Shown piece by piece: positions 251 through 20,736 of a stretch of DNA of 38,541 bases. The notes beneath the pieces were generated by a model. That model searched no databases. It had not been told where the DNA came from and was given only the letters and a program-made list of their open reading frames with translations. Source of the DNA: Gammaproteobacteria bacterium (GTDB lineage Bacteria; Pseudomonadota; Gammaproteobacteria; SZUA-229); NCBI GenBank assembly GCA_029880105.1, contig JAOUPA010000004.1, positions 1 to 38,541 on the forward strand, given 5' to 3'. A program made the translations under genes and the position numbers. Numbering within the stretch: position 1 is the first letter of the stretch; the number at the start of each line of letters is the position of its first letter.

Positions 251-1459
251 TTAAATCTTAATGTTTGCGACTGCATCATACACTGGACCTAACACTGACA
301 TCATAATCCACATCATCACAAGTCCTAGTATTACTGTTAATGCTGGCATCATTGTTGGCTCAATCTTATCAATTGATTCTTTTACTTCCCTGTCATAAAA
401 ATAGCTAACATTAAGCAGCGCATCATCCATTGCGCCTGTGTCTTCGCCTACTTTTATCATGCGCACTACCATTGAAGGAAATACGCCTGTAGCCTCAAAA
501 CTTTCACTAATCTGCATGCCCTCAGTAATTTTTTCCCTGGCCGTTCTAATCGAATCCTCCAGTTTTACGTTATTCATAATACCCTCTGATATTTTCAGGG
601 CATTCAATACCGTTATTCCTGAGCCATACATCATTGCAAAATAATTGGCAAAGCGTGCTATTTTTATTTTTAACATCAAAGGCCCAAATAGCCAGATTTT
701 TAATTTCATGCTGTCGACAGTATACTGGACAGCTGGATTGACTCTAACGATTGCCTTGATGGCAGCATAGATCAATATCGGCGCCATAAATATTAGATAC
801 CAATAATTCACAAATGCCGATGAAACAGCTATAAGAACTTTTGTATGGGTGGGTATTTCTGTACCTATATTTTTTATAAATGGTAATAGCTGCGGCATCA
901 AATAAGTCATTAAAAATGTGACAACAATTAAGACTACCGCGGTTACTATAGCTGGGTATATCATGATTTTTCTACTGTGTGATGCTAGCTCATCCTGCCA
1001 ACGCAAGGTCTCACCCATCTCTCTCAGTACCTTGGTTAACTGCCCGGTTTCTTCACCCACTCTTACCAGGGTCACATAGACATCATCAAATACATGTTTA
1101 TGCTCGGCCAGGGCCAGAGACATCGTTTTACCGCCTTCAATATCATCGATAATCGTTTGCAATATATCGGTAAAGTGACTGTATTCCAGGCTGTCACGAA
1201 TATCGCGCAAACAATCCAGCAGCGGCACCCCCGCCTTCATTAGCTGTTCAATATGGAAAGTAAAATTAATCAGCTCCCTTCTCGTGATCGATTTCCTGCC
1301 AAAAATCGAACCTGAGGCCTTTGCCTGTTCCTGGTAGCTCAGTAAATCAAAACCCATACTTCCCAGTCGCTTCTCCAGTTCCATTGGATTACTGGCAATC
1401 ATGGTATCGCTTCTTACTTTCCCTGCCTCATCAATTGTTTTGAATTTGTAGTCTGGCAT
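251..1459 (-). CDS. mshG: Type II secretion F family inner-membrane platform protein, MSHA biogenesis MshG-like
   Basis: 402 aa; GspF/PilC features (RRELINFTFHIEQLMKAGVPLLDCL, VGEETGQL, VGEDTGAMDDALLNVSYFYDREV), several TM segments; directly downstream of mshE. Confidence 0.85.
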   Translation of the reverse strand: MPDYKFKTIDEAGKVRSDTMIASNPMELEKRLGSMGFDLLSYQEQAKASGSIFGRKSITRRELINFTFHIEQLMKAGVPLLDCLRDIRDSLEYSHFTDILQTIIDDIEGGKTMSLALAEHKHVFDDVYVTLVRVGEETGQLTKVLREMGETLRWQDELASHSRKIMIYPAIVTAVVLIVVTFLMTYLMPQLLPFIKNIGTEIPTHTKVLIAVSSAFVNYWYLIFMAPILIYAAIKAIVRVNPAVQYTVDSMKLKIWLFGPLMLKIKIARFANYFAMMYGSGITVLNALKISEGIMNNVKLEDSIRTAREKITEGMQISESFEATGVFPSMVVRMIKVGEDTGAMDDALLNVSYFYDREVKESIDKIEPTMMPALTVILGLVMMWIMMSVLGPVYDAVANIKI

Positions 1460-1472
1460 AGTCTTCTTCGAT

Positions 1473-3182
1473 TTACTTTAATCGCTGAGTCATATCAATT
1501 ACGCGAGACACTTCCTGTAACGAGGTCAATCCATCCATGACAACCCTGATTGAATCGTCTGCCAATGTTTTATAGCCAGTTTTTATCGCACATTCTTTCA
1601 ATTCACCCAGTGTCGCCCTTTTGGCTATCAGTTCATCCAGTTCATCTCCAATGGTCAGTGCCTCTATAACCGATAAACGCCCCTTATATCCTGTATTGTC
1701 GCAATGCTCACAGCCAGCTGCTTCATATATCCTGATCGGTTCATTCACTTTTAATAGTTTACTATCTACCACGTCAGACATAACTGCTTTTTTACAGCGC
1801 GGGCATAATAGTCGTATTAGGCGCTGACTGATGATGCCAATAATATTGCCCGTCATGATGTCAGGTAAAACACCAATATCAAGCAGGCGAGGAATTGCGC
1901 CGATCGCAGAATTTGTATGCAGCGTTGTCAGCACCTGGTGCCCGGTCATCGCGGCTCTAAATGCCATTTCAGCCGTATCTTCATCACGAATCTCACCAAC
2001 GAGGATAATATCCGGATCCTGACGCATCATAGAGCGTATGCCATCAGCAAATGTCATTCTTGCTACTTCATTAATCGATGTCTGCCGTATCATGTCCACT
2101 GGATACTCAACAGGATCTTCCAGCGTCATAATATTTACTTCTTCAGACTTCACATAATTCAGCAGAGAATAGAGTGTTGTTGTCTTACCACTACCAGTAG
2201 GCCCCGTTACCAGGATGATCCCTTCTGGCCGTGCCATCATCATTTTCAATGCATTTAGCGTGTCTTCATGCAGACCCAGTTTATCCAGTGGCACAATGCC
2301 CTTGGCCCTGTCCAGTACACGCAATACAATGTTTTCACCGTGTGTTGTCGGTTGCGCCGAAACACGAAAGTCAACACGGTGGCCCTGCACCTGTAAACTC
2401 AGCCTGCCATCCTGAGATATTTTTGTCTCAGCTATATTCATCGATGACATTACTTTCAGACGTACAACAATCGCTGACCAGTAGTCTTTATGCAAACTGC
2501 GTATTTGCCTTAGCACTCCATCGATACGATAACGTAGTCGCAGAAATCCCTCTTCCGGCTCAAAATGGATATCTGATGCATCTCGTTTTACTGCATCCGC
2601 AAGTATGGCATCAACCAACCTGATTAATGGCTGACTATATTCGTCCTCTACCGCATCCAGGCTCTTATAATCGATTTCGCCTGTTTCTATCTCGTGCAGA
2701 ATGCCATCGACTGACAACTCATAACCATAGAACTGGTCAATGGCTTTTTTAATTTCACCTTCACCAGATACATAAGGTGTAATTTCAATCTTCCGACCAA
2801 CTAGTGCATGCACACGGTCAAGCACCTGTAAGTCTGTTGCGTTTTTCATTGCCAGGCGCAGATGCTGATCTTCAGGTTTGTAACCTATCGGTACGATCAC
2901 ATACCTTTCTGCAATTTCTTTTGGGATTAATTTCAGCGCCTGGGCATCAGGCACAACCGTACTCAAATCCACGCTGCTTATACCAAGCACCTGGCCAAGC
3001 ATGTCTCGCATAACGGATTCGGAAATAAAGCCGAGTGAAACTAGGATTTCGCCGATCAGGCGACCATTCTTTTTTTGCTCCGTTAACGCAATCTCTACCT
3101 GGTCGGCAGTAACCAAACCTTTTTCTATAAGCTGTTCACCCAGCCTTTTTTTTGCGCTTTGATTTTTTTCCTGCGAGCTCAT
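1473..3182 (-). CDS. mshE: GspE/PulE-family assembly ATPase, MSHA biogenesis MshE-like
   Basis: 569 aa; Walker A GPTGSGKTTTLYS, Asp box DPDIILVGEIRDEDTAEMAFRAAMTGHQVLTTLHTN, CPRCK...CEHCDNTGYKGR zinc motif, N-terminal GspE-II-like domain. Confidence 0.92.
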   Translation of the reverse strand: MSSQEKNQSAKKRLGEQLIEKGLVTADQVEIALTEQKKNGRLIGEILVSLGFISESVMRDMLGQVLGISSVDLSTVVPDAQALKLIPKEIAERYVIVPIGYKPEDQHLRLAMKNATDLQVLDRVHALVGRKIEITPYVSGEGEIKKAIDQFYGYELSVDGILHEIETGEIDYKSLDAVEDEYSQPLIRLVDAILADAVKRDASDIHFEPEEGFLRLRYRIDGVLRQIRSLHKDYWSAIVVRLKVMSSMNIAETKISQDGRLSLQVQGHRVDFRVSAQPTTHGENIVLRVLDRAKGIVPLDKLGLHEDTLNALKMMMARPEGIILVTGPTGSGKTTTLYSLLNYVKSEEVNIMTLEDPVEYPVDMIRQTSINEVARMTFADGIRSMMRQDPDIILVGEIRDEDTAEMAFRAAMTGHQVLTTLHTNSAIGAIPRLLDIGVLPDIMTGNIIGIISQRLIRLLCPRCKKAVMSDVVDSKLLKVNEPIRIYEAAGCEHCDNTGYKGRLSVIEALTIGDELDELIAKRATLGELKECAIKTGYKTLADDSIRVVMDGLTSLQEVSRVIDMTQRLK

Positions 3183-3188
3183 CTATAT

Positions 3189-4490
3189 CTACTTTGCTGA
3201 TAGCACCTGAATACGATTTTCTACCGTATCCTTCGAATAACTAATATTCTGCCCCTGCGCCAGTGACAGACAGCTTTTATAAAAGCCCAATGCTTCTTTG
3301 GTTTTACCTAGCTGATCGAGACTCACTGCAAGATTGTATACATAATCTGCATTTTCTTTATTACCCTGCCACGCCCTGAAATATTCCGACTGCGCCTCTG
3401 GCCATCTTCCCTGTCGCGCATATATATTTCCAAGTGCAAAATTCAAATGGCTTGCCTCTGGTTGTTGCTGCAGCATAAATTTGAGCTTGCTTTCATCAAG
3501 CGAGTTCATCGAGAAGTTTTTAATGTTGCTCATCGCTGACATTGCCACCTCATCGCGCGGATTTAATTTCAGCAATAACTGGTAACTCTCTTTGGCTTTT
3601 TTATAGTCTGCTTTTTTAACGGCAATGGCGGCAACACCTAGCAGTGCATCACGGTTCTTCGGCTCACGCTTGAGGACTTTTTCATATGCCTCACTTGCAG
3701 CCCTATAATCTGCTCTGTTATAGGCCATCCATGCATCTCTCAGCCATGCATTGACGTGATCTAATGCATCTGTCTTCATTATTAAAATCTGACGCTCAGT
3801 ATCAGCTTTCTGCCTTACCTGTGATACTGATTTATTCGATTTTTTTGCTGTAGCTATTTTTTCTTCCGTTACCGTATTCACTACTTGCTGTTCTTGTGTT
3901 GCTGCTTTACTGACATCATCCTGTACTGGCCGCACTAAGGTCTTCCTCTCAGTGCCTGCACGAACCTCACGCATCGCTAGTCGGTGTTTACGCTCAAGCG
4001 CATCCATCTCATCCATCACACCTAAATAATAATAGCCGCCAGCCGTCAGCAGGATAATGGCTGCCACTGACAGCATACTCCCCCATACTATTTTGTGTTT
4101 TTGCCTGTATCTTTTATTGGTTTTATATACCAGTAGCTGTAACGCCTGGTCTGACACTGTCGTGGTTGTCGCTGCACTCTTTTCGTATTCTGGCGACAGT
4201 GTCAGTGGACCCTGCTTAACCTCAGCCTCAGTCTCTGGTTCTTCAGCTGGCAAAGTGATCTCTGCTGGTACTTCTTCCACATCATCGAGTACCAGCTCAA
4301 GTTCATCACTACTTTCTTCGGATGCTAAGGGCTCCTCTACATCAGGCGCTGGCTCGGGCAACTCTTCAGGCAATACGTCCTGCCTGTTTTTTTCAGTCTG
4401 TTCTTTTTGACCGGATAACCCTGCCTCGGCTTCACGCGCCCTCTGCTTCTCCTTCTCGGCCTTTTTTAATGCGTCCAGTAACAGGCTCAT
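3189..4490 (-). CDS. mshN: TPR-repeat single-pass membrane protein, MshN-like
   Basis: 433 aa; starts MSLLLDALKKAEKEKQRAREAE (typical of MshN/GspB-like proteins), one TM segment, C-terminal TPRs; located between mshL and mshE. Confidence 0.75.
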   Translation of the reverse strand: MSLLLDALKKAEKEKQRAREAEAGLSGQKEQTEKNRQDVLPEELPEPAPDVEEPLASEESSDELELVLDDVEEVPAEITLPAEEPETEAEVKQGPLTLSPEYEKSAATTTTVSDQALQLLVYKTNKRYRQKHKIVWGSMLSVAAIILLTAGGYYYLGVMDEMDALERKHRLAMREVRAGTERKTLVRPVQDDVSKAATQEQQVVNTVTEEKIATAKKSNKSVSQVRQKADTERQILIMKTDALDHVNAWLRDAWMAYNRADYRAASEAYEKVLKREPKNRDALLGVAAIAVKKADYKKAKESYQLLLKLNPRDEVAMSAMSNIKNFSMNSLDESKLKFMLQQQPEASHLNFALGNIYARQGRWPEAQSEYFRAWQGNKENADYVYNLAVSLDQLGKTKEALGFYKSCLSLAQGQNISYSKDTVENRIQVLSAK

Positions 4491-4501
4491 AACAACCTCA
4501 G

Positions 4502-6133
4502 CTATTTGCTCTGTCCAGCACTGGCATCAAAATCTTCCATCAGGTATTTTTTGTAATCTTTTAGATCTCCATCTAGACTGGCATCATGTACGACAACTGG
4601 GCGAATAAAAATCACCAGCTCGGACTTCACATACTCATCATCCTGATAGGAGAACAACGCACCCAGTAATGGAATACTCGACAAAATAGGTACGCCACTT
4701 CGATGTTTATTGATCTGATCCTGCATCAGACCACCAATAACTGCTGTATCACCATTGTTCACCTTTAATACCGATTCGATTTCTCGCACCTGGATGATAG
4801 GCACTTCGTTCTCAACGCCTGCGTCTGCCAAAGCAGGATTGGGATCTTTTGCTCTACCAATTACGCGTGAGATAGTTGGGCGCACATGCAAAGTAACCAC
4901 ATCATTTTGATCTACATATGGCATTACTGACATAACAAAGCCAACTGGTACAGTATTGATTTCGGTAGTGATTGTGCCAGCAGTAAAGATGCCATCGATA
5001 ACTGTTCCTTTCTCTACTTCAATCAGAAAATATACTTCGCTATCTACAACCTTGAGTACAGCTGTCTGGTTATTCAATGCCATCACTTTAGGACTGGACA
5101 GAACTTTGACATCGCCAAAGGTTTCCAGTGCTTTTAATGTCGCACCTAGCTGCTCGCCATTACCAGTCGTACCTTGAGCAGATAATTGAAAGAAAGGCGT
5201 TGTTCCCAGACTACCGCCGAGTAAATTCTGGTTTATCTGATCAATGTTTCCCAATGAGTCAACTCTCATCATTGACCAATCAATACCTGCCTGGTAGTGA
5301 TCGCTCAACTTCACCTCTGCAATTGTCGCCTCAATCATCACCTGGCGCTGTGCACTACCCACCACTTTATCCAGTAGTTCACGTATCTGCTTATGCTGCC
5401 TTGATGTTGCTCGCACGCCTATGACGCCGGTTTCACGGTTAACTAAAATATTAGAGCTGGTCTGCTGAATGTCATCACTAATCTTAGCCTCTTCACCAAG
5501 TACACCAGCAACATTTATTATTAATGTTTTCCAAAATTCATTATTTGACTCATTTTCAACCGTCGAGCTGGAGTTGTTGCCGCCACCCGAGCCACCACCT
5601 TTTGCATCCGAGCCTGTTGAACTGATTTCGGTTGCAACGTCAACACTGCCTTTACTCAAGCGCGACATATTCAGATAATTGACATCGTATAATTGCAGAC
5701 GTGGTTTATCAGCTCGCACATACAGCGTTTCATCTTCAAGCCGGTAATCAATATCTGTCTGCCTGACCAGGCGCTCAAGAATTTGCGGCAGGGTCTGATC
5801 AATTGCATTCATCGTTACCTTGCCATTGATATCACCATCGATATCAAGATTTAATTTGGCATCTCTGGCCATAGAGAACAGCAGTTCACGTACTGGCACC
5901 TGATTTACAATCACGGTGTATGTCTCAAGATTTGGACGTGGCTCTGGCTCTGGCAGGACAGGAACATCAATGACTGGTGCCGGTATGGCATCAACAGCCT
6001 CATCTCCACCTTTCAAATGCCCTTCAGACATTACCGGAGGATTACTCGCTCCACAGGCCGTTAGTATCAACAGAAGAAACAGCATTGAAGCATTTTTTAT
6101 CATTATTATCATTTGATCACCCACATATCTCAT
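4502..6133 (-). CDS. mshL: MSHA-type pilus secretin lipoprotein MshL-like
   Basis: 543 aa; lipobox LILTACG, secretin_N/STN-type region, conserved C-terminal secretin domain (VPIIQVREIESVLKVNNGDTAVIGGLMQDQINKHRSGVPILSSIPLLGALFSYQDDEYVKSELVIFIRPVVV). Start may be an internal Met (about 6112 or 6103). Confidence 0.88.
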   Translation of the reverse strand: MRYVGDQMIIMIKNASMLFLLLILTACGASNPPVMSEGHLKGGDEAVDAIPAPVIDVPVLPEPEPRPNLETYTVIVNQVPVRELLFSMARDAKLNLDIDGDINGKVTMNAIDQTLPQILERLVRQTDIDYRLEDETLYVRADKPRLQLYDVNYLNMSRLSKGSVDVATEISSTGSDAKGGGSGGGNNSSSTVENESNNEFWKTLIINVAGVLGEEAKISDDIQQTSSNILVNRETGVIGVRATSRQHKQIRELLDKVVGSAQRQVMIEATIAEVKLSDHYQAGIDWSMMRVDSLGNIDQINQNLLGGSLGTTPFFQLSAQGTTGNGEQLGATLKALETFGDVKVLSSPKVMALNNQTAVLKVVDSEVYFLIEVEKGTVIDGIFTAGTITTEINTVPVGFVMSVMPYVDQNDVVTLHVRPTISRVIGRAKDPNPALADAGVENEVPIIQVREIESVLKVNNGDTAVIGGLMQDQINKHRSGVPILSSIPLLGALFSYQDDEYVKSELVIFIRPVVVHDASLDGDLKDYKKYLMEDFDASAGQSK

Positions 6134-6170
6134 TGAGCCAATTTCCTTTATCCAACCCGCTCAACCATCA

Positions 6171-7505
6171 TTAATTTCGTACCAAGTCCTTACGCAACGC
6201 ACTCACCCTTCTTAAAAAAGGCTGGCTTTCCTGCAGCTCAGCTGGCAGACGGCGAAGCATTTCTCTAGATTCCTGCCGTGAGGAAAAATCCCCATAAAGC
6301 ACACTGTACATCTCAACACCATCGATCATTGTCTCATAGATATAAATTCTTTCAAAATCAAGCATTTCGGGGAGCGCACCCAGAAATTCCTCGACCCCTG
6401 CGGCATCTATAACACGTGTTACAAACAATTGTATGCTGTAGTGCATATCCGGCGCTACAGATAACCACTGATCCGTCGCCATTAAACGCTTTTCCAGTGT
6501 GCTATCAACGACCTTAGTATTGGTGCTTACGCGATCTGCAGCAGCTTCAGGAACCATTTTTACCGCATGCTCAGCGTTTTTTTCGGTAGCTATCAATTTT
6601 CCATCTGATTTGCCAATTATCATGCCCAGCCAGACTGCTATACCCAGCCCTGTAATTATCGCTGCCGCTACCAGCCACTGTTTCCAGTCATGTTTTTTTG
6701 CAAAATCACTGTCAATCGCACCGGCCTTTACATGTTTAACGGTTACCTCATGACCACCTTCAGAAAACGATGCCATCAGGGCTTTATCTGCAAGGATATT
6801 GATTCTTCTGGTCAAGCCACCTGAATATTTCTCAATGGCGTTAGCGGTTTTCTGGTTAAAAACATCAGGACCGCGATAACCAACATTGCGTAGACGAAAA
6901 TTGAGATATTCCAGCGTATCACTGGGCGGAAACGGCTCGAGGTAAAAACTATGTGTTATACGTTCCTTTAACTGGCGAATTTCTGCCTGCGCCAGCTTAT
7001 CATCCAGCTCTGGCTGACCAAACAGCACCATTTGCAGTAATTTGCTTTGTTCTGTTTCCAGGTTACTCAGCAGGCGGATTTCCTCGAGTGTTTCGATAGG
7101 CATACTCTGTGCCTCTTCCACGAACAGGACTACCTGACGATTATCTGCGTGCTTTTTCAGTAAATAGGTCTGTATTTTCTGCATCACATCGAGCTTATTG
7201 CTGTTGCTATCAACGTCCAGCCCCAGCTCATGGGCGATAACGTGCAGTATATTATCTGGCGACAGGCTTGGATTTGCGATATAAACCACGTCTACTTCAC
7301 CCACCAGACGTACTTCTAGCATACGGCAAAGCATGGTCTTACCACTACCTACCTCACCCACAACTTTGGTAATTCCTTCACCACTTGATATAGCGTACAT
7401 CAGGGCATCAAGTGCTGCACCACGCTGACTACCTTCGAAAAACAGGCTGGTATCTGGTGTGATTTTGAAAGGAGCCCTTTCCAGGCCAAAGTGTCCCTGG
7501 TACAT
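6171..7505 (-). CDS. mshM: ExeA/MshM-family AAA ATPase with TM segment and C-terminal SPOR-like domain
   Basis: 444 aa; MYQGHFGLERAPFKITPDTSLFFEGSQRGAALDALMYAISSGEG, Walker A GEVGSGKTMLCRM, Walker B VVLFVEEAQ; TM near WLVAAAIITGLGIAVWLGMIIG; C-terminal YSIQLFV...YSVLYGDFSSRQESREMLRRLP. Confidence 0.8.
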   Translation of the reverse strand: MYQGHFGLERAPFKITPDTSLFFEGSQRGAALDALMYAISSGEGITKVVGEVGSGKTMLCRMLEVRLVGEVDVVYIANPSLSPDNILHVIAHELGLDVDSNSNKLDVMQKIQTYLLKKHADNRQVVLFVEEAQSMPIETLEEIRLLSNLETEQSKLLQMVLFGQPELDDKLAQAEIRQLKERITHSFYLEPFPPSDTLEYLNFRLRNVGYRGPDVFNQKTANAIEKYSGGLTRRINILADKALMASFSEGGHEVTVKHVKAGAIDSDFAKKHDWKQWLVAAAIITGLGIAVWLGMIIGKSDGKLIATEKNAEHAVKMVPEAAADRVSTNTKVVDSTLEKRLMATDQWLSVAPDMHYSIQLFVTRVIDAAGVEEFLGALPEMLDFERIYIYETMIDGVEMYSVLYGDFSSRQESREMLRRLPAELQESQPFLRRVSALRKDLVRN

Positions 7506-7507
7506 AG

Positions 7508-8950
7508 CTATAACTTTCCTAATTTCTGCACACGGCTATACAGTGTAGTGCGATTAACTTTCAGGGCATCAGCCGCCTTGCTGACCTTATTATTATTCAT
7601 TTCCAGTGCCAGTCTAATACATCGACTCTCCACCTCTTCCAGCAGGTCATCCAGAGAAAACTCGCCCAATGCCAATTGCTGTTTGATAAATTCATCGCTC
7701 AACACATGGCTAGATTCTGACAAATCACTGGATGACAATTGTGTTTCCAGCTCATTTTCGAGCACCGCCCGTGTAATCTTCTCACCCGGATATTTCGTTC
7801 CCAGGCGAATAACGATATTACGTAATTCGCGAATATTACCGGGAAAGGCATAACTGGCCCAAAGCGCCCTGGCGCCTTCATCCAGCTCAAAGGGCGCAAC
7901 CGAGTCGGCATAGGTCGACAGAAAATGATCCAGCAAAAGAAAGCTATCGCTATTGCGGTCCCTTAATGGCGGCATATTGACGTTAAGAATGCTCAGGCGA
8001 TGGTACAGGTCCGCACGGAAATGACCTTCCACCACTTCATCGCGTAACACCTTGTTAGTCGCGGCAACAATACGTGCCCTTGATTTCAATTGCTGAGTAT
8101 CACCAACTCGGTAAAACTCACCGCTCTCGATAACACGCAACAACTTGCCCTGCAAGGGCAATGGTAGCTCCCCAATTTCGTCCAGTAGCAACGTACCCTG
8201 TCCGGCTTCAATAAAAAAGCCTTTGTGCTCCTGACTGGCTCCTGTAAAAGCGCCTTTACGGTGACCAAATAACTGTGCCTCTAATAAGTCGGGGGCTATC
8301 GCGGCACAGTTAATTGCCATAAACGGTTCAGAGTGCCGCTGACTCTGCTCGTGTATCGCCCTGGCAACCATCTCTTTACCAGTTCCAGACTCCCCCTGTA
8401 TCAGCACAGGGAACGGTGAGTCAGCAAACTGCTGTATCTGCTGCTGTATCACCTCCATTGCCGCGCTCTTACCAATAATGGAGTAATCTTTTTGCCTGGC
8501 GCGCCGCTGCTCTACTTCGCGTAAGCGCATATGGTGCTGCAATCTGGACAGCAGTAGAGGTGGATCAGCGGGCTTGGCAATAAAGTCGACAGCGCCTAGC
8601 GTCAGTGCGTGCTGAATATTTACATCATTGTTCTGGCCCGACAGCACCAGTATTTTCATATCACCTGGCTGTAGCAGCAGCTCACGGATCAAGCTAAATC
8701 CCTCATCCGGTTTATGCGGCAATGGTGGTAGACCAAGGTCGATCAGCGCTATGGCCGGTCTTTCATCCATCTCGGCCAGAAGCTCATTGGCCCTGGCCCT
8801 TGAATCAGCAGCAACAACCCGGTACTGCTTACGCAGCAAAAAACTCAGGCTTTCGATAATTAACGGGTCATCGTCAACGAGCAAAATCGTCGCCTTTGTT
8901 AATGCATCAGGCTCAATGCCTGATTCTGAATTTAATACTTGCTCGCTCAT
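7508..8950 (-). CDS. NtrC-family sigma-54-dependent response regulator, PrsR-like
   Basis: Receiver domain (ILLVDDDPLIIESL, IALIDLGLPP), AAA+ domain with GESGTGKE and GAFTGA, Fis-type HTH (KVSKAADALKVNRTTLYSRVQKL). Start set at MSEQ; the track ORF extends to 8977 through a non-ATG codon. Confidence 0.85.
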   Translation of the reverse strand: MSEQVLNSESGIEPDALTKATILLVDDDPLIIESLSFLLRKQYRVVAADSRARANELLAEMDERPAIALIDLGLPPLPHKPDEGFSLIRELLLQPGDMKILVLSGQNNDVNIQHALTLGAVDFIAKPADPPLLLSRLQHHMRLREVEQRRARQKDYSIIGKSAAMEVIQQQIQQFADSPFPVLIQGESGTGKEMVARAIHEQSQRHSEPFMAINCAAIAPDLLEAQLFGHRKGAFTGASQEHKGFFIEAGQGTLLLDEIGELPLPLQGKLLRVIESGEFYRVGDTQQLKSRARIVAATNKVLRDEVVEGHFRADLYHRLSILNVNMPPLRDRNSDSFLLLDHFLSTYADSVAPFELDEGARALWASYAFPGNIRELRNIVIRLGTKYPGEKITRAVLENELETQLSSSDLSESSHVLSDEFIKQQLALGEFSLDDLLEEVESRCIRLALEMNNNKVSKAADALKVNRTTLYSRVQKLGKL

Positions 8951-9071
8951 TATTGTCTCATTTGGATAGCTAACCAATTCTTATTCATACTATATAGCAA
9001 ATATCACCACCAAAAGCGTGAACCTCATCAAACTAGATGTGATTAATTACAACTACCGATAAACTATCGCT

Positions 9072-9545
9072 ATGTTCAACATCGTCCTGTACCAGCCAGA
9101 AATTCCACCCAATACTGGCAACATCATACGGCTGTGCGCCAATACCGGCTGCTACTTACACCTGATTGAGCCACTGGGTTTTGAACTCGATGATAAAAAA
9201 CTCCGCCGCGCTGGACTCGATTATCATGAATGGGCCGATGTTCAGATACATACTTCTCTGGATGCCTTCACTGCCAAACTTGGTAATTCCGGCTCTGGTA
9301 ACGTCTATGCGTTAACAACACGGGGACAACGTAACTATTACGAGGCACGCTATTTAGCCGGTGATTCCTTAATTTTTGGCCCTGAGACCCGAGGCCTGCC
9401 CCAGGAATATCTGGATTCACTAGCCCCTTTAAATACCCTGCGCCTACCTATGCTAAAAAACAGCCGCAGCCTTAATCTATCCAATACAGCTGCCATTGTG
9501 GTTTATGAAGCCTTACGTCAGACAGGTTTTAAAGGGATGGGTTAG
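9072..9545 (+). CDS. trmL: tRNA (cytidine(34)-2'-O)-methyltransferase TrmL (SPOUT)
   Basis: 157 aa; MFNIVLYQPEIPPNTGNIIRLCANTG, LIFGPETRGLP, SLNLSNTAAIVVYEALRQ. Confidence 0.93.
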   Translation: MFNIVLYQPEIPPNTGNIIRLCANTGCYLHLIEPLGFELDDKKLRRAGLDYHEWADVQIHTSLDAFTAKLGNSGSGNVYALTTRGQRNYYEARYLAGDSLIFGPETRGLPQEYLDSLAPLNTLRLPMLKNSRSLNLSNTAAIVVYEALRQTGFKGMG

Positions 9546-10576
9546 TGTTGGTCGTGAACAATTTCTGAGCCTGGTTTTCTTTCAAGTAGTTGCCTGACGG
9601 CCTCCTGTGGAGACAGGTTCTCGTATAACACCTTGTATACTTGCTCGATAATGGGCAGTTCCACGTTATATTTTTCGGCAAGGCGCATTGCTTCTCGTGC
9701 GGTCCTGACACCTTCAATTTCCTGACCTATCTGCTGTTTTATTTCCTCTTTTGACAGTCCCTCTGCCAGCTTCAGGCCCATACGACGATTTCGAGACTGG
9801 TTATCGGTACAGGTCAGAACCAGATCACCCATGCCGGCAAGGCCCATAAAGGTTTCACGATGGGCTCCCATTACCACACCTAGTCGCATCAGCTCAGCCA
9901 GTCCACGCGTAATCAGCGCCGCCCTCGCATTGGCACCAAACCCCAGACCATCAGCCGCACCCGAGGCAATCGCCAGTACATTTTTTAGCGCACCACCCAG
10001 CTCAACACCAACCATATCATTGCTAGTGTAGGCCCTGAAGTTTCCGTGGTGCAGGCAGTGACTGATCTTATTGGCCAGCTCCTCTGATTCTGAAGCCACT
10101 GTAATTGCCGTTGGCAAGCCCAACGCTACCTCTCGGGCAAAAGTAGGCCCTGATATCACTACAAATTTAGAGCACTGTGGCAGCTCTTCCTTAACCACCT
10201 GATGCAGCAATTTACCGGTACCTTCTTCAAGACCCTTACTGGCCCAGGTCACCGCAGTATCCTTATCGATAAAAACCGAGGCCTTGGCCAGAAATGAACG
10301 AAAGACATAACTGGGGATAGCCAGCAAAATCCAGCTGGCTGATTTCAGTGCCAGCTCCAAGCTGGGCTGTATCTTTAATGTCTCAGGAAAGGGAATATCT
10401 GGAATAAACTGCTGGTTACAGCGCTCTTTCTGCAGGCGCTCCATGTGCTCAGGCTCGTTCCCCCATAACGTGACTTCTGAGCCAGCATTGGCCATATGTA
10501 TGGCCAGCGCAGTACCCCATGAACCCGCACCTATAACCGTGACCGGCCCTGGTCCTGCTTTATCCTCAGCAGACAT
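9542..10576 (-). CDS. gpsA: Glycerol-3-phosphate dehydrogenase [NAD(P)+]
   Basis: 344 aa; VIGAGSWGTALAIHMA, VISGPTFAREVA, ELGGALKNVLAIASG, LAGMGDLVLTCTDNQSRNRRMG. Confidence 0.95.
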   Translation of the reverse strand: MSAEDKAGPGPVTVIGAGSWGTALAIHMANAGSEVTLWGNEPEHMERLQKERCNQQFIPDIPFPETLKIQPSLELALKSASWILLAIPSYVFRSFLAKASVFIDKDTAVTWASKGLEEGTGKLLHQVVKEELPQCSKFVVISGPTFAREVALGLPTAITVASESEELANKISHCLHHGNFRAYTSNDMVGVELGGALKNVLAIASGAADGLGFGANARAALITRGLAELMRLGVVMGAHRETFMGLAGMGDLVLTCTDNQSRNRRMGLKLAEGLSKEEIKQQIGQEIEGVRTAREAMRLAEKYNVELPIIEQVYKVLYENLSPQEAVRQLLERKPGSEIVHDQH

Positions 10577-10579
10577 TAA

Positions 10580-11050
10580 TTAATGGGCCGTACCTTGAGC
10601 CGCGGCTGCCTGTTGCTGTTTCTGCTGCATAAACAACGCATTAAAATTAATCGGTGAAAGTAATAGAGATGGAAAACCTCCCTTGTTGACAAAATCAGCG
10701 ATAGCTTCCCTTGCAAACGGAAACAACGCCTCCGGACAATAGGCGCCCAGCATTCCCTCCAGATTTTCTTTTGGGAAACCTGATAGCATAAACAGGCCGG
10801 CCTGTTTTACCTCAACAAGAAAAGCTGTTTTTTCATTTTTCTTGGCAGTAACTGTTATATTTAACAACACCTCATAGATGTTCTGCCCAACTGCCTGATG
10901 TGAACTATTTATTTGCACATTAATATCTGGTTTCCATTCACCATCAGCAAAAACAGAGGGTGAGTTAGGTGCTTCAAACGACACATCCTTTAAATAAATT
11001 TTCTGAATAGCAAACTGCTGCTCTGCTACCTGTTGATTTTCTTCTGTCAT
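10580..11050 (-). CDS. secB: Protein-export chaperone SecB
   Basis: 156 aa; FAIQKIYLKDVSFEAPNSP, EVKQAGLFMLSGF, YCPEALFPFAREAIADFVNKGGFPSLLLSPINFNALF. Confidence 0.95.
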   Translation of the reverse strand: MTEENQQVAEQQFAIQKIYLKDVSFEAPNSPSVFADGEWKPDINVQINSSHQAVGQNIYEVLLNITVTAKKNEKTAFLVEVKQAGLFMLSGFPKENLEGMLGAYCPEALFPFAREAIADFVNKGGFPSLLLSPINFNALFMQQKQQQAAAAQGTAH

Positions 11051-11095: not shown

Positions 11096-11524
11096 TTATT
11101 TTTTTGTTGTTGGTAATTTTGCTTCCAGCCAGGCATTTATGCCGCCTGCAATATTGTGTACATTGGTAAAACCGGCCTGAGTCAGTAAGCGACAGGCCCT
11201 GGTAGACGAGGCACCACTGTTACAATATGCGAGTACTACTGATTGTTTTTTTGAGGCGAGACTATCCAGCTTTTCCTTGAACACAGAGAGCGGCAGATTG
11301 GTCGCCCCTTTAATATGCCCCTTACCAAAATCACTACTCTCGCGCACATCGATAATCAGCGCATCATCATTGCTATTAATAAGACGAATTGCACTCATGG
11401 GATTAAGATGAATCGACTGGTTCGTCCGGCTCTCAAACTCAGCCTTAACCAGCAACACCAGTACAACCACCAACGCCATCCACAAATAAGGATGGTTCGC
11501 TACAAACTCAAACATCTGTTCCAT
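11096..11524 (-). CDS. Membrane-anchored rhodanese-like sulfurtransferase (YibN-like)
   Basis: 142 aa; N-terminal TM (YLWMALVVVLVLLV), rhodanese domain with catalytic loop YCNSGASSTRACRLL. Confidence 0.88.
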   Translation of the reverse strand: MEQMFEFVANHPYLWMALVVVLVLLVKAEFESRTNQSIHLNPMSAIRLINSNDDALIIDVRESSDFGKGHIKGATNLPLSVFKEKLDSLASKKQSVVLAYCNSGASSTRACRLLTQAGFTNVHNIAGGINAWLEAKLPTTKK

Positions 11525-11538
11525 AATAAAACGCTTAT

Positions 11539-11880
11539 TTATTCAAAATCACCGAATTTTAGACCAGTGGAACAGAAAACCTCCTGCATCATACCAATCA
11601 GTCGTAGCGTGCGGGTATCGCCGACACGATAAAACACCTTATTGGCGTCCTTACGTGATGCCAGAATACCCTTATCACGTAAAATGGCCAGATGCTGTGA
11701 AATATTACTCTGTGAGGTACCCACAGCATCTACGATATCCTGTACACTGACTTCCTGGTCGCCCAGCGTACAGAGTATTTTTAAACGAAGCGGATGCGAC
11801 ATCGCTTTAAGTGAACGCGATGCACGGTTAATATCCTCTTCACGAGTCATTAATAATGGATCTTCCTGACTTGCACTCAT
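11539..11880 (-). CDS. ArsR/SmtB-family regulator, possible SqrR/BigR/YgaV-type persulfide sensor
   Basis: 113 aa winged HTH (LKAMSHPLRLKILCTLGDQEVSVQDIVDAVGTSQSNISQHLAILRDKGILASRKDANKVFYRVGD). Only two cysteines, C37 and C103. Confidence 0.85.
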   Translation of the reverse strand: MSASQEDPLLMTREEDINRASRSLKAMSHPLRLKILCTLGDQEVSVQDIVDAVGTSQSNISQHLAILRDKGILASRKDANKVFYRVGDTRTLRLIGMMQEVFCSTGLKFGDFE

Positions 11881-12025
11881 GAGCTACCTTGACCTCTACG
11901 TTGATCTATAACTATATAATTAAAAACCAATACGATATTACACTGTTTCAGTAAAAAATACACCGAACAGATAAAATATAAAAACAAACTTAATATTTTT
12001 AATAATTGAAAGAAAGGCTCTGTTT

Positions 12026-13249
12026 TTGCGTAATAAAAACACCAGTTCAATTCTCGCACAACCTATAATAAAGCACGGCTCAATCTGCTTTCTGCTAGCT
12101 TTTTATCCCTTATATCAACCAGTTACCCTGTTTGCTGAAAATGAGTCTGATATTCCCGTCTATCAGGAAAAGCTCGATCGCCTACAACAAAGTATTCTCA
12201 ATATTCAAAAACACCTGAAAGAAACCCGTGGACACCGCGGCAATACCCTTACCGAATTGCAACAGCTCGAGAGTGCAATCAGCAATAATGCTCGAGCTCT
12301 CAAAAAGACTGAAGACGAGATAAAGGCCATCAACGCTCGCATCACCAAAACTAGAAAAAATCTCGAACTACTCAATCGGCAACTAAAAAAACAGAAATTT
12401 ATTCTTGGCGAGCAGCTCAGGGCTGCCTACGCACTGGGTGCCCAGCAAAACATGAAGATGCTACTTAATCAGCAGGATCCTGCTGAAATGGGGCGAATTC
12501 AGGCCTATTTTAACTACCTGAACAGGGCGCGTCAGACTGAAATACAGCAATTCATTACAACTATCGAAAGTAAGCGACAACAGGAACTGGAGCTCTCCAA
12601 TAACCTTGATTCACAGAAATCCGCGCTTGAGACACGTAAAAAGCAGACACGCGAGCTTCAGAAGCAGCGTTTACAACGCAATCAACTGCTCGTCCAGCTT
12701 GATGAAAAAATAAAGAATCAGGAACAGACTCTAACCGGCCTCGAGGCCAGCCGTAATAAAATTGAAGACCTTCTCCACTCTCTCGGCCAGATACTGGCCG
12801 ATATCCCAGTGTCTCCCGGAGAAGACAGGCCCTTTAAGCAACAAAAAGGCACATTACCCTGGCCTATCAAAGGCCCCTTCATCGCTCACTATGGGCAGAA
12901 GCGTAATCAGGGTGACTTAAAATGGAATGGCGTACTGATTGGATCTTCTTATGGCACACCCGTTCGCGCCATCAGCCATGGCCGTGTCGCTTTTTCTGAC
13001 TGGCTACAGGGATTCGGATTTATCTCCATCATTGACCATGGCGATGGCTATATGAGTCTCTATGGTCACAACGAATCATTATTTAAGCAGGCTGGAGACT
13101 GGGTCACCGCGGGCGAGATCATTGCCACAACCGGGGACAGCGGTGGCCAACCAGACCCCGGGCTTTATTTTGAGATTCGCTCTCGTGGCAAACCCATTGA
13201 CCCTCAGGAGTGGTGCTCCAGCAAGGCCAGACACGCCGCAACGCGGTAA
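12026..13249 (+). CDS. envC: Murein hydrolase activator EnvC-like (M23/LytM domain with coiled coil)
   Basis: 407 aa; signal-like N-terminus, long coiled coil, degenerate M23 domain (GVLIGSSYGTPVRAISHGRVAFSDWLQGFGFISIIDHGDGYMSLYGHNESLFKQAGDWVTAGEIIATTGDSGG). TTG start with AAAGG about 8 nt upstream. Confidence 0.88.
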   Translation: MRNKNTSSILAQPIIKHGSICFLLAFYPLYQPVTLFAENESDIPVYQEKLDRLQQSILNIQKHLKETRGHRGNTLTELQQLESAISNNARALKKTEDEIKAINARITKTRKNLELLNRQLKKQKFILGEQLRAAYALGAQQNMKMLLNQQDPAEMGRIQAYFNYLNRARQTEIQQFITTIESKRQQELELSNNLDSQKSALETRKKQTRELQKQRLQRNQLLVQLDEKIKNQEQTLTGLEASRNKIEDLLHSLGQILADIPVSPGEDRPFKQQKGTLPWPIKGPFIAHYGQKRNQGDLKWNGVLIGSSYGTPVRAISHGRVAFSDWLQGFGFISIIDHGDGYMSLYGHNESLFKQAGDWVTAGEIIATTGDSGGQPDPGLYFEIRSRGKPIDPQEWCSSKARHAATR

Positions 13250-16124: not shown

Positions 16125-16162
16125 ACTTGACCAAACTACTAGGTTATTTAGAGGAAACCACA

Positions 16163-16498
16163 ATGCAAGCAGAAGTAAACGGCAAGATCATCCAACTCAG
16201 CGAGGCTGGTTGGCTGGAAAATCTTGATGAATGGAGCGAAGAACTCGCTGTTCAAATCGCCAAAAATGAGCAAATTCCAGAACTAACTCAGGAGCACTGG
16301 GACATCATCAATGAAGCACGCGAATACTTTACAGAAAATGGTGCCGTATGTGAGCCTCGTAATTTTTCAAAAATCATGAAAAATAAATATGGCAAAGATC
16401 GTAGCGATCAAAAATACATTTACTCGCTGTTTCCAACAGGCCTGATCAAATGCGCTAACAAAATCGCTGGTCTGCCAAGACCCAAGGGCTGTAGCTAG
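16163..16498 (+). CDS. DsrC/TusE-family sulfur-carrier/relay protein
   Basis: 111 aa from ATG 16163 (GAGG at 16151); LTQEHWDIINEAREYF, KYIYSLFPTG, C-terminus GLIKCANKIAGLPRPKGCS with penultimate Cys. Upstream part of the track ORF (MTKLLGYLEETT) is likely untranslated. Confidence 0.9.
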   Translation: MQAEVNGKIIQLSEAGWLENLDEWSEELAVQIAKNEQIPELTQEHWDIINEAREYFTENGAVCEPRNFSKIMKNKYGKDRSDQKYIYSLFPTGLIKCANKIAGLPRPKGCS

Positions 16499-17262: not shown

Positions 17263-20200
17263 CTAATCTCTGTGAATCCAGTCAGCCCCTAACGAACCCT
17301 GTAAACTCTCCAGATAACTCTGACTAGATAACCACTCTATTATTTCATCTGCTTTTTCCAATCGGCCCTGTAACATCGCCCATTTCTCGGTTTCATTTTC
17401 AGGGACTTCATCCATTTTCTGCTCAATATATTCACGGCTTCTTTTCCAGAGATTTGTGTCTCTACTCTGTTTAATTTTCAATCGTTCCTGATACCAGTCA
17501 CTCTGCATTAAATAATCTCTGCTAAACATCTCGCGTACCTCAGGATCCGCAACAGTTTTACCTTTATACTCACCATAGGCCATAATATTCAGCAATGCCT
17601 GTAATGGTGGGCATGCATCATCAATTGAACCATCTTCAAAATATGCTTTGGCTACTTTCTGTTGCGCCTCGGTAATATTATTGATGCCATCAATGTATGC
17701 CAGCATATCCTGTGATTCTGGTTTCAGCATAGCTTCATCAAATACAATCGTTGGACTGTCAAACACCTTTCCAAAAAATGTGTGCACAAACTTCTCTGTG
17801 ATTCGATAACCCAGACGACTCGCATGCACGACTTTGCCTTCGTGTGCAAAATCATGCAGCTTTTCTAAATAGCCATTCTCAATCATGTATTTTGGATCAC
17901 GCTGTACCACAGGGATACGACACCATATTTCAGGAATCAGCATACTGATATCGTGATCAACACGACGGCGAGCACCAATGTAGCCTGCAGCACTACTAAA
18001 GCCATCGTGCCCACACAGAATATAAGAGACCAGTGCATTATTTAAATCTGCTGTCGTTGACAGCGCATTAAATGGTCCCTTGGTTAGTGCGCCTTCAGAT
18101 CCCGCTCCGGTAGTCGAGGGTGATTTACCCGTCAGGCTACAGATCAGATCCATAAACAACTCTGGCAATTCCTGATAGTGAATTGGGTTGTAAACAGCCA
18201 GGGGTCTGATGCCAGCCGCTTTATCCTGGGGGTTATTTCTACGGCCCTGCAAAACAGCATTAACTGGGAAGTGCACAGGCTGATCAGCCGATAGCCCTCT
18301 CGATAAACTCGTTCCAACAGTCGCAAGATACAGGCTGCGTGAATCAGCCAGATCCGGTCTTATCTGCAAGTAACGTACATTCAGGCTAGGCTTGCCATCA
18401 ACAATTCTTGGGTGTGCTGAGGACACAAAATATTCATCTTCATTAGTCTTTGCAACACTTCTAATTAAATCACGCATCGGCTTTGTATAATCCTGAAAAC
18501 CTACTGCATCTTCTACCAGGTTCTGTGCATCTTCTCTGGTGAGTGGCTCAAAATTTGAAATGAAATTGCCATCCTCAGCGAGGTCTGATTCAGTCTGTTT
18601 ATCATGCCCCCTGATAATTGCATCATCAGGACGCTGAAACAATCGATTCTCGCAATTTTTCACCAACTTAACACTATCGACATGATAACGTTTATTTAGG
18701 CCCTGAAGTTGTGATACTGGCATTACGATTGATGCGCTAATATCATCTTCTGTTTGCACTTTTGTTGCGGCAACAAAATCCTGTCTCAGTTTATAAATTC
18801 TCCATGTTCCATCGCTATGGGTACCGACTCGCAAATAACTCGTTATTAGTTTGCGACCATCATATTTTAGTTCATGACCAGGATTACCATTCACTTCATC
18901 AACAGTGAAATGCCTTCTCCAGTCATTCTGCCATTCCTGTTTATAAAAACGCTTGATCAGAAATACCAGCGCCAGAATATGTTGCGGAATAGTTTCCAGC
19001 CAATCGTTATACTCATCTGTGTAATCGGTCTTTGATGGAGTTAGCACACGTATCACAGAGCCAAGACTACGTTCTTTATGCAGCAACTCACGGAAATCAT
19101 TTGACTTCCCATTTTTGAATCGTGTTGAGTAATCGCGATTAAAAATCGCAGTCACCTGATCAAGGTCTTCTTCAATATCACCAACATAGACTGGGCCAGT
19201 TATCATCGAATCCTGAATCGATTTTGATATCTCAGATTTACCGCCGCCTGACACCGTACTGGGCTTATGACAGAAAGTACCTTCACCCAGTGTGCCAATC
19301 AAACGCCAGCTTGGTGCCTGTGGATGTTTTTGCAGGTGCACACGGAAACCACTGGGATATATATAAGTATGTTTTGCCAGTAGCTTGATCTGTTTCTCTT
19401 CCCCGTTTTTTTTCCATCTTATGCTTTGGCTTTGCATATCAATACAGGCATCTTCAGGAATGTATAAAATATTATTCCAGTTGGTATCTACCGCATATCC
19501 CTCTTCCTTTATTACTATGTGCTGCCTGTGTTGTTCACACACCCAGGAAAAAGTGTGGTTCTCCATTTCCTTTTCAATTTTTGGCAGGTAACTGGTACCG
19601 AGATTGAATCTTGGAAATGCCACTGCACCACCGGCATGCTCCTCTTCGACACCTCCAAATAAATTGGCTGAATAACTAATCTGTGATTTGATTTCTTTTT
19701 TGCTATAGCCAAAATAATTATCAGCTATTACGGTAACAACCACACCGCTCATATCGCGACAAACGATCTTGAAGGCACTGCCATTGTTGTAGAGTTCATC
19801 ATCACTCTTCCAGCACATATCATCCTTGCGCTGACGCTCGCTAGCATCATCATAATGTGGCAAGCCAAGACCCTTCTTGGTCAGCCTGGTTAGGTGCGGT
19901 GCCAGTATTACGCAACCACTGTGACCCGTCCAGTGTTCAACATCGAGTGCTGCGTCATTTTCTGCCAGAAAGGGATCGCCGCCATTGCCAAAAATGGATT
20001 CAACAAAATCCAGATTCGCAACCAGACTGCCAGGCGCAAAAAATCGTGTCTCCAGTGTTTTCTCATTAAGCACGCCCTTTACCTCGGGGCGTACAATAGG
20101 GCGCAGTAGTAACGAAACCCAGAGATTGATCGGCTTCGGTAGGCCACTGGAAATAGGTAGCTCCAGTAAATTTTCTGGCGGATCCAGTGCTACCTGTAAT

Positions 20201-20736
20201 AAATTGGCGTAGACATCCACTGGTACTGCTTTTTTATCAGCAGGAATCGGCAGACCACCCTCAACAATATGAAATACACCTGATGTAGTACGACGGTCAT
20301 TTTTCGGGTTATGCAGAACACCCTGCTTGATTCGATAGGATTCCAGCAGGTCTGATTTGTACTTATTGCTATTCAGTGGAACTGAAAGCTCTCTGGCCAG
20401 CTGCGGTTCATTTAATGAAAATGTTTCAGTAGGCAGCTTAATCTCCTGTTCAATACCATGGCGCTTCAGATAGCCATTCAGAAAATCCTGAATACGGCGG
20501 TCAGCGGGACAACGGTACTCGGCAAACAGGCGCCGATATTCAGAGTAATTTTTTATCAGGCTATCGGCGACCGATAAATAACCATGCTCAGAGCCCATCT
20601 GGCATTTGTGTCCCAGTGCTGCCAGCTGTAGACAGATATGCTGTAACCTGGTCTGGCGCTTATCCTTCACACGTCTATCAGGACAAACATATACCTTTTC
20701 TTCTTTCATTACTGTCGCCAAAACTGACCCTCTCAC
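17263..20736 (-). CDS. Very large conserved-looking protein; provisional PPi-type phosphoenolpyruvate carboxykinase homologue
   Basis: 1157 aa single ORF; P-loop-like STVSGGGKSEIS (codons at 19225-19260), SLTGKSPSTTGAGSEGALTKGPFNALSTTADLNNALVSYI; size fits the ~1100+ aa diphosphate-dependent PEPCK family. Assignment from remembered family features, not a search. GTG at 20736; ATG at 20709 or an intervening TTG also possible. Confidence 0.6.
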   Translation of the reverse strand: MRGSVLATVMKEEKVYVCPDRRVKDKRQTRLQHICLQLAALGHKCQMGSEHGYLSVADSLIKNYSEYRRLFAEYRCPADRRIQDFLNGYLKRHGIEQEIKLPTETFSLNEPQLARELSVPLNSNKYKSDLLESYRIKQGVLHNPKNDRRTTSGVFHIVEGGLPIPADKKAVPVDVYANLLQVALDPPENLLELPISSGLPKPINLWVSLLLRPIVRPEVKGVLNEKTLETRFFAPGSLVANLDFVESIFGNGGDPFLAENDAALDVEHWTGHSGCVILAPHLTRLTKKGLGLPHYDDASERQRKDDMCWKSDDELYNNGSAFKIVCRDMSGVVVTVIADNYFGYSKKEIKSQISYSANLFGGVEEEHAGGAVAFPRFNLGTSYLPKIEKEMENHTFSWVCEQHRQHIVIKEEGYAVDTNWNNILYIPEDACIDMQSQSIRWKKNGEEKQIKLLAKHTYIYPSGFRVHLQKHPQAPSWRLIGTLGEGTFCHKPSTVSGGGKSEISKSIQDSMITGPVYVGDIEEDLDQVTAIFNRDYSTRFKNGKSNDFRELLHKERSLGSVIRVLTPSKTDYTDEYNDWLETIPQHILALVFLIKRFYKQEWQNDWRRHFTVDEVNGNPGHELKYDGRKLITSYLRVGTHSDGTWRIYKLRQDFVAATKVQTEDDISASIVMPVSQLQGLNKRYHVDSVKLVKNCENRLFQRPDDAIIRGHDKQTESDLAEDGNFISNFEPLTREDAQNLVEDAVGFQDYTKPMRDLIRSVAKTNEDEYFVSSAHPRIVDGKPSLNVRYLQIRPDLADSRSLYLATVGTSLSRGLSADQPVHFPVNAVLQGRRNNPQDKAAGIRPLAVYNPIHYQELPELFMDLICSLTGKSPSTTGAGSEGALTKGPFNALSTTADLNNALVSYILCGHDGFSSAAGYIGARRRVDHDISMLIPEIWCRIPVVQRDPKYMIENGYLEKLHDFAHEGKVVHASRLGYRITEKFVHTFFGKVFDSPTIVFDEAMLKPESQDMLAYIDGINNITEAQQKVAKAYFEDGSIDDACPPLQALLNIMAYGEYKGKTVADPEVREMFSRDYLMQSDWYQERLKIKQSRDTNLWKRSREYIEQKMDEVPENETEKWAMLQGRLEKADEIIEWLSSQSYLESLQGSLGADWIHRD

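Follow-up and report, generated by a model that had tools for sequence, protein, structure and literature searches.

The arsR-yibN locus

The window, which is the whole 38,541-nt stretch of DNA analysed here, encodes on its minus strand a putative SqrR/BigR/YgaV-like dithiol ArsR repressor of 113 AA residues (arsR, 11539-11880) and, directly downstream, a putative membrane-anchored single-domain rhodanese of 142 AA residues (yibN, 11096-11524) that shares 32% AA identity with E. coli YibN. These are followed on the same strand by secB (10580-11050), with no grxC lying between yibN and secB, unlike in E. coli, and by gpsA (9542-10576). The first-pass annotation had described a rhodanese 14 nt downstream of an ArsR gene with secB-gpsA continuing on the same strand, and this arrangement was confirmed, the gaps being 14 nt between arsR and yibN (11525-11538), 45 nt between yibN and secB and 3 nt between secB and gpsA. 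The divergent neighbour is envC (12026-13249, plus strand), which has a 145-bp intergenic region in common with arsR.

The catalytic residue of the rhodanese is predicted to be Cys-101 (142-AA numbering) in the loop AYCNSGASS, which is 99% conserved, as in a catalytically competent enzyme. Given its hydrophobic N-terminal helix (a membrane helix by sequence inspection only), its single rhodanese domain and its yibN-(grxC)-secB-gpsA synteny, the protein is assigned as the YibN ortholog of the locus in which gpmI/envC diverge from yibN-grxC-secB-gpsA. E. coli has no arsR here, its gpmM-envC-yibQ genes being divergent from yibN-grxC-secB-gpsA-cysE, whereas in the window envC-ctpA-yibQ are divergent from arsR-yibN-secB-gpsA. 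The arsR gene is thus promoter-proximal in an old locus, and grxC is absent from the window. The short yibN-secB spacing in relatives suggests that many of them also lack grxC.

Elsewhere in the window, an MSHA-type pilus cluster (251-8977, minus strand), including an MshL secretin and an MshE-like ATPase, adjoins genes for a PEP-CTERM-type ATPase and a response regulator, and a 1157-AA open reading frame (17263-20736, minus strand) gave no NCBIfam or Pfam match. The plus strand encodes a TusE/DsrC-family sulfur relay protein (16127-16498; 105 bits against a cut-off of 53.5) and a molybdopterin oxidoreductase (35440-38349), which is weakly PhsA-like and possibly SoeA, a sulfite dehydrogenase. 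As DsrA is also encoded in the genome, intracellular sulfane sulfur would be expected in this organism.

The cysteine pair and family placement of ArsR

ArsR contains only two cysteine residues, C37 and C103, which are 66 residues apart, as had been noted from the sequence at the outset. Both are invariant in all 119 distinct close orthologs, 111 of which contain no further cysteine, and both are kept in 38 of 39 divergence-filtered orthologs, the sole representative without C103 being L207; judged from these alignments, retention of the pair is far beyond chance. In an AlphaFold2 model (mean pLDDT 84.6), C37 lies within a helix of residues 30-39 and C103 comes right after a helix of residues 89-102, positions that correspond to the alpha2/alpha5 arrangement of known persulfide sensors. 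HMMER alignment matched C37 and C103 to the cysteine pairs of BigR, HlyU, YgaV and SqrR, free of gaps except for one inserted residue in YgaV, so that the correspondence with the SqrR/BigR pair proposed by the first-pass annotation also holds.

A profile built from 39 ArsR ortholog sequences was used to rank solved proteins. BigR, YgaV, three HlyU entries and SqrR came first (84.7-75.7 bits), followed by NolR (75.5 bits) and then by PagR, Rv0081, SmtB (54.6 bits), NmtR, CadC (45.6 bits) and CzrA (44 bits). Foldseek searches with the AlphaFold2 model likewise placed HlyU, BigR, SqrR, NolR and YgaV ahead of most metal sensors; ArsR is thus nearer to the persulfide-sensor group (SqrR/BigR/YgaV/HlyU) than to metal sensors, in sequence as well as in fold. 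We know of no persulfide or sulfur sensing by NolR, and since NolR is close by profile, family nearness alone is no proof of function. The SqrR/BigR/YgaV/HlyU group corresponds to SSN cluster 4 of PMC10509353, our placement being made by profile and fold. The top NCBIfam match of the window protein is the general ArsR model, and assignment to the BigR equivalog (NF040642) was rejected (78.6 bits against a curated cut-off of 155). Persulfide-sensing ArsRs carry cysteines in alpha2 and alpha5 and are found near sulfurtransferases or rhodaneses (PMC10509353, PMC12423496). The ArsR in the window resembles them in both respects, with alpha2 and alpha5 cysteines about 66 residues apart and a rhodanese gene, yibN, located immediately downstream of arsR in 177 of 188 orthologous loci. 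At two other loci (L179 and L183), the place of yibN is taken by a TolC-type outer membrane efflux gene, with gpmI divergent on the other side of the ArsR gene.

Distribution and conservation

In an even draw of 370 Gammaproteobacteria, 239 genomes gave some ArsR match, and the ortholog, called at an E value of 3e-27 or better with a clear gap from 51 weak and probably non-orthologous matches, was found in about 188 (about half), including some genomes near 1 Mb. Across the 177 linked loci the median identity was 86% for ArsR and 39% for YibN; for SecB and GpsA it was about 54% in the subsets of these loci where they were found. A comparison of 30 genomes from 27 genera, picked for good ArsR matches and with ArsR identity taken over a core of ~100 residues only, gave 81-89% identity to the window protein for the ArsR core, 79-88% for ATP synthase beta (AtpD) and 55-69% for NrdR, so that on these alignments ArsR is conserved on a par with a core ATP-synthase subunit. 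This conservation and the spread through half of the class suggest that persulfide control of YibN may be a basic cell function. No description of an ArsR linked to secB, grxC or gpmI was found in the open-licence literature, and the orthologs, as a group distinct in operator, target and degree of conservation, appear to be undescribed in the sources searched.

Retention of the catalytic cysteine of YibN was compared between loci with and without arsR. The residue is present in 176 of the 177 arsR-linked loci, and at the family level it is replaced or missing in 12 of 56 arsR-less families compared with 1 of 38 (Fisher p = 0.013, uncorrected for phylogeny), a few of these 12 losses possibly being alignment errors. 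E. coli YibN (L209:5085-5516) has Asp in place of the catalytic cysteine, in the loop VVDGSGMQC. The correlation between arsR and the YibN cysteine is modest as read from these alignments, and would fit regulation by ArsR of a sulfurtransferase that is active.

A conserved element upstream of arsR

The search for an operator in the arsR upstream region, which the first-pass annotation had proposed, yielded a 26-bp candidate at 11915-11940 (minus strand), TAATATCGTATTGGTTTTTAATTATA, with the consensus TATTATTGTATAATGTTTTnnTnATA, a putative operator/promoter element. It is overlapped by an AT-rich near-palindrome, TAATTATATAGTTATA (11907-11922, minus strand), which is conserved within the genus and may represent a second half-site pair. 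When 110 non-redundant upstream regions were searched for motifs, the 26-bp element reached a log-likelihood of 1091, three shuffles giving no more than 46, and it was located mostly 50-120 nt ahead of the arsR start. A held-out matrix trained on 46 sites outside the window's own family recovered the element in 43 of 44 own-family loci; scanned over both strands of the 38.5-kb window, it gave its top site at 11940-11915 on the minus strand (15.8 bits), with a runner-up of 9.9 bits. Among 56 yibN loci without arsR, a single one scores above 12 bits, and the element also precedes a second ArsR copy in one genome (G393), which is not linked to yibN and has a CbiM-like neighbour. The element therefore accompanies ArsR and not yibN, as expected for autoregulation.

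In most lineages the element includes a -10-like TATAAT hexamer, which reads TATTGG in the window, and the left half-site is degenerate (TATTGG) in the window's genus. Around arsR-yibN, scans for sigma-70 promoters and terminators did not clearly exceed what shuffles gave. A search of the 370 genomes with the strong element as a 19-mer, allowing up to 2 mismatches, revealed no wider regulon at that stringency; about 43 sites lay directly upstream of arsR and the remainder were near the level of a reversed-pattern control.

ArsR orthologs in other classes

A phylum-wide search identified ArsR orthologs outside Gammaproteobacteria as well. In a sister class (L213-L239, including G423), which is probably Magnetococcia, about 24 of 27 loci have a YibN-like rhodanese next to ArsR, and C37 is lost while C23, C89 and C103 are present in all 27; L251 and L252, of the same class, also encode an orthologous ArsR with C23, C89 and C103, without C37, and the same rhodanese alongside. 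The C37-C103 bridge thus cannot be universal among ArsR proteins encoded next to yibN. The promoters of this sister class carry TATTAG-N6-CTAATA, with 11 or 12 of its 12 positions matched in 52% of loci compared with 0% of shuffles, and the mean match peaks at a spacer of 6. Written as ATTA-N8-TAAT, the palindrome has the geometry of the SqrR site, ATTC-N8-GAAT (PMC9774250), and a half-site similar to the NolR one (PMC12445080). In another group (f187), which appears to be Zetaproteobacteria-like, the standard cysteine pair is kept, and 8 of 8 loci match the operator at 10 or more of its 12 positions. At three Zetaproteobacteria-like loci (L240, L241 and L243), an ArsR with the standard pair is encoded near several rhodanese genes. 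The window's own family shows no enrichment of TATTAG-N6-CTAATA (10 or more of 12 positions matched in 2% of loci compared with 6% of shuffles), and only the longer element is therefore claimed for the window, not this ancestral palindrome.

Discussion

ArsR is probably a persulfide-responsive autorepressor of arsR-yibN, with the sensing itself deduced from characterised relatives. In the proposed mechanism, ArsR would act as a dimeric winged-helix repressor which, when reduced, keeps arsR-yibN expression low by occupying the AT-rich element of its own promoter (~11915-11940). A rise in sulfane sulfur (persulfide or polysulfide) would lead to a sulfur bridge between C37 and C103 within a protomer, the bridged ArsR would leave the DNA and the YibN rhodanese would be made. 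The catalytic cysteine of YibN could then take up sulfane sulfur at the inner membrane and hand it on, and thioredoxin or glutaredoxin would reset ArsR, closing the loop. Characterised relatives are the source for all of these assignments, from repression and the bridging of the cysteines to the inducer and the role in physiology; YgaV represses the ygaV-rhodanese operon (PMC9774250), and the repression and bridging steps are drawn from YgaV, SqrR, SoxR and HlyU (PMC9774250, PMC12423496, PMC10509353).

The first-pass annotation had suggested a sulfane-sulfur-responsive switch controlling the rhodanese and perhaps also secB-gpsA. Control of the rhodanese by an SqrR/BigR-type dithiol repressor is strongly supported by the residue alignment, the profile and fold ranking, the conserved arsR-yibN synteny and the ArsR-linked operator. 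The extension to secB-gpsA found no specific support, as these genes belong to an ancient yibN-grxC-secB-gpsA locus that is free of arsR in E. coli and in most of 56 other families; in one sister-class genome, inspection of 10 kb around arsR-yibN found no secB. Read-through from the arsR promoter into secB-gpsA is plausible in the window, though less supported than control of arsR-yibN, and co-expression by this route would be possible in the proposed mechanism without being required.

The same cysteine pair might instead serve a general thiol-redox or small-molecule sensor that responds in the cell mainly to disulfide, peroxide, hypochlorous or electrophile stress, with YibN, Grx3, SecB and GpsA contributing to envelope homeostasis and not to sulfur handling. 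A housekeeping role of the locus would agree with the reported interaction of YibN with YidC and the wider cells that result from its deletion in E. coli (PMC12282094); grxC belongs to this locus in other genomes as well as in E. coli, ArsR is found beside an outer membrane efflux gene at some exceptional loci, and its occurrence in half of the class and retention in very small genomes, near 1 Mb, mean that thiol stress of a more general sort could be what induces the system. However, the H2O2-sensing ArsR RexT uses two proximal alpha3 cysteines (PMC10509353), none of which is present in the window ArsR, and the structurally close HlyU reacts with persulfides and is inert to H2O2 or GSSG (PMC10509353). 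We therefore regard a general sensor as unlikely.

ArsR could also be a constitutive or purely architectural autoregulator, with structural cysteines, no sulfur switching of its DNA binding and an upstream element that is chiefly a promoter. Hyperconservation that spans nearly the whole ArsR core, and not just the cysteines, would be consistent with such a role, as would the TATAAT hexamer inside the element in most lineages. Nevertheless, the thiols occupy the exact positions of a known switch and are nearly always kept at 47-79% overall identity, the element tracks arsR and not yibN, and the operator found in the sister class has genuine inverted-repeat symmetry, which makes this explanation very improbable. 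An ordinary ArsR/SmtB-type metal or metalloid sensor is hardly credible and was rejected on sequence inspection and low profile rank: although the protein scores 84.5 bits with the general HTH_metalloreg model of NCBIfam, above the cut-off of 55, it has neither an alpha3 CxC (SVQDIVDAVG) nor the alpha5 D-x-H/H-x2-H ligands (GDTRTLRLIGMMQEVFC), its only two cysteines lie in alpha2 and at the end of alpha5, SmtB, CzrA, CadC and NmtR score 20-40 bits below the persulfide sensors, and no metal transporter gene adjoins it.

The persulfide-responsive mechanism preferred here is of an already known kind, with the sulfur sensing carried over from its relatives, and its closest counterpart is YgaV-YgaP of E. 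coli (PMC9774250). There too, the gene for an ArsR with alpha2 and alpha5 cysteines comes immediately before that of a membrane rhodanese in the same operon, and the repressor binds near the transcription start with SqrR-like operator geometry, as is predicted for the ArsR group described here. In contrast, the rhodanese in the window is YibN, with its N-terminal helix and yibN-secB-gpsA locus, and not YgaP, and its ArsR is only about 36% identical to YgaV and near-invariant across half of the class. BigR of Xylella and Acinetobacter (PMC5823870, PMC7315123) is the closest solved sequence, has the same cysteine pair and spacing and controls a target with sulfur-transferase activity, whereas the window locus has no adjoining Blh/dioxygenase or sulfite exporter. 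SqrR of Rhodobacter capsulatus and SoxR/sHdrR of Hyphomicrobium share the cysteine pair, which is sulfur-bridged in characterised members (PMC12423496, PMC10451225), and SqrR also shares the operator geometry ATTx-N8-xAAT, but their targets are sqr, sox and shdr. NolR of Sinorhizobium (PMC12445080) has a similar fold and an (A/T)TTAG half-site but acts on symbiosis and global targets. The E. coli yibN-grxC-secB-gpsA locus keeps the same order around YibN, SecB, GpsA, EnvC and YibQ and differs in lacking arsR, retaining grxC and having Asp for the catalytic cysteine of YibN.

A broader reading, which we offer tentatively and hold to be somewhat less than an even chance, is that the YibN-linked ArsR is a near-invariant core sulfane-sulfur sensor of Gammaproteobacteria and sister classes that links the rhodanese, and thereby the SecB/YidC membrane-protein pathway, to persulfide status; its thiol site would have been rewired from C37/C103 to C23/C89/C103 in the sister class, and lineages without the sensor would tend to lose the catalytic cysteine of YibN. 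The sister-class variant without C37 would make the question of which thiols are required directly testable. The role of the rhodanese domain of E. coli YibN has been stated as undetermined (PMC12282094), and the ArsR-YibN pairing offers a way into this role, E. coli being without both the regulator and the canonical catalytic cysteine. Sulfide detoxification and sulfur oxidation are the processes in which persulfide-sensing ArsRs are usually viewed as playing an accessory regulatory part; if the present reading is true, sulfane-sulfur sensing would be part of basic membrane biology, acting on a rhodanese whose gene lies in a core locus for envelope and secretion functions.
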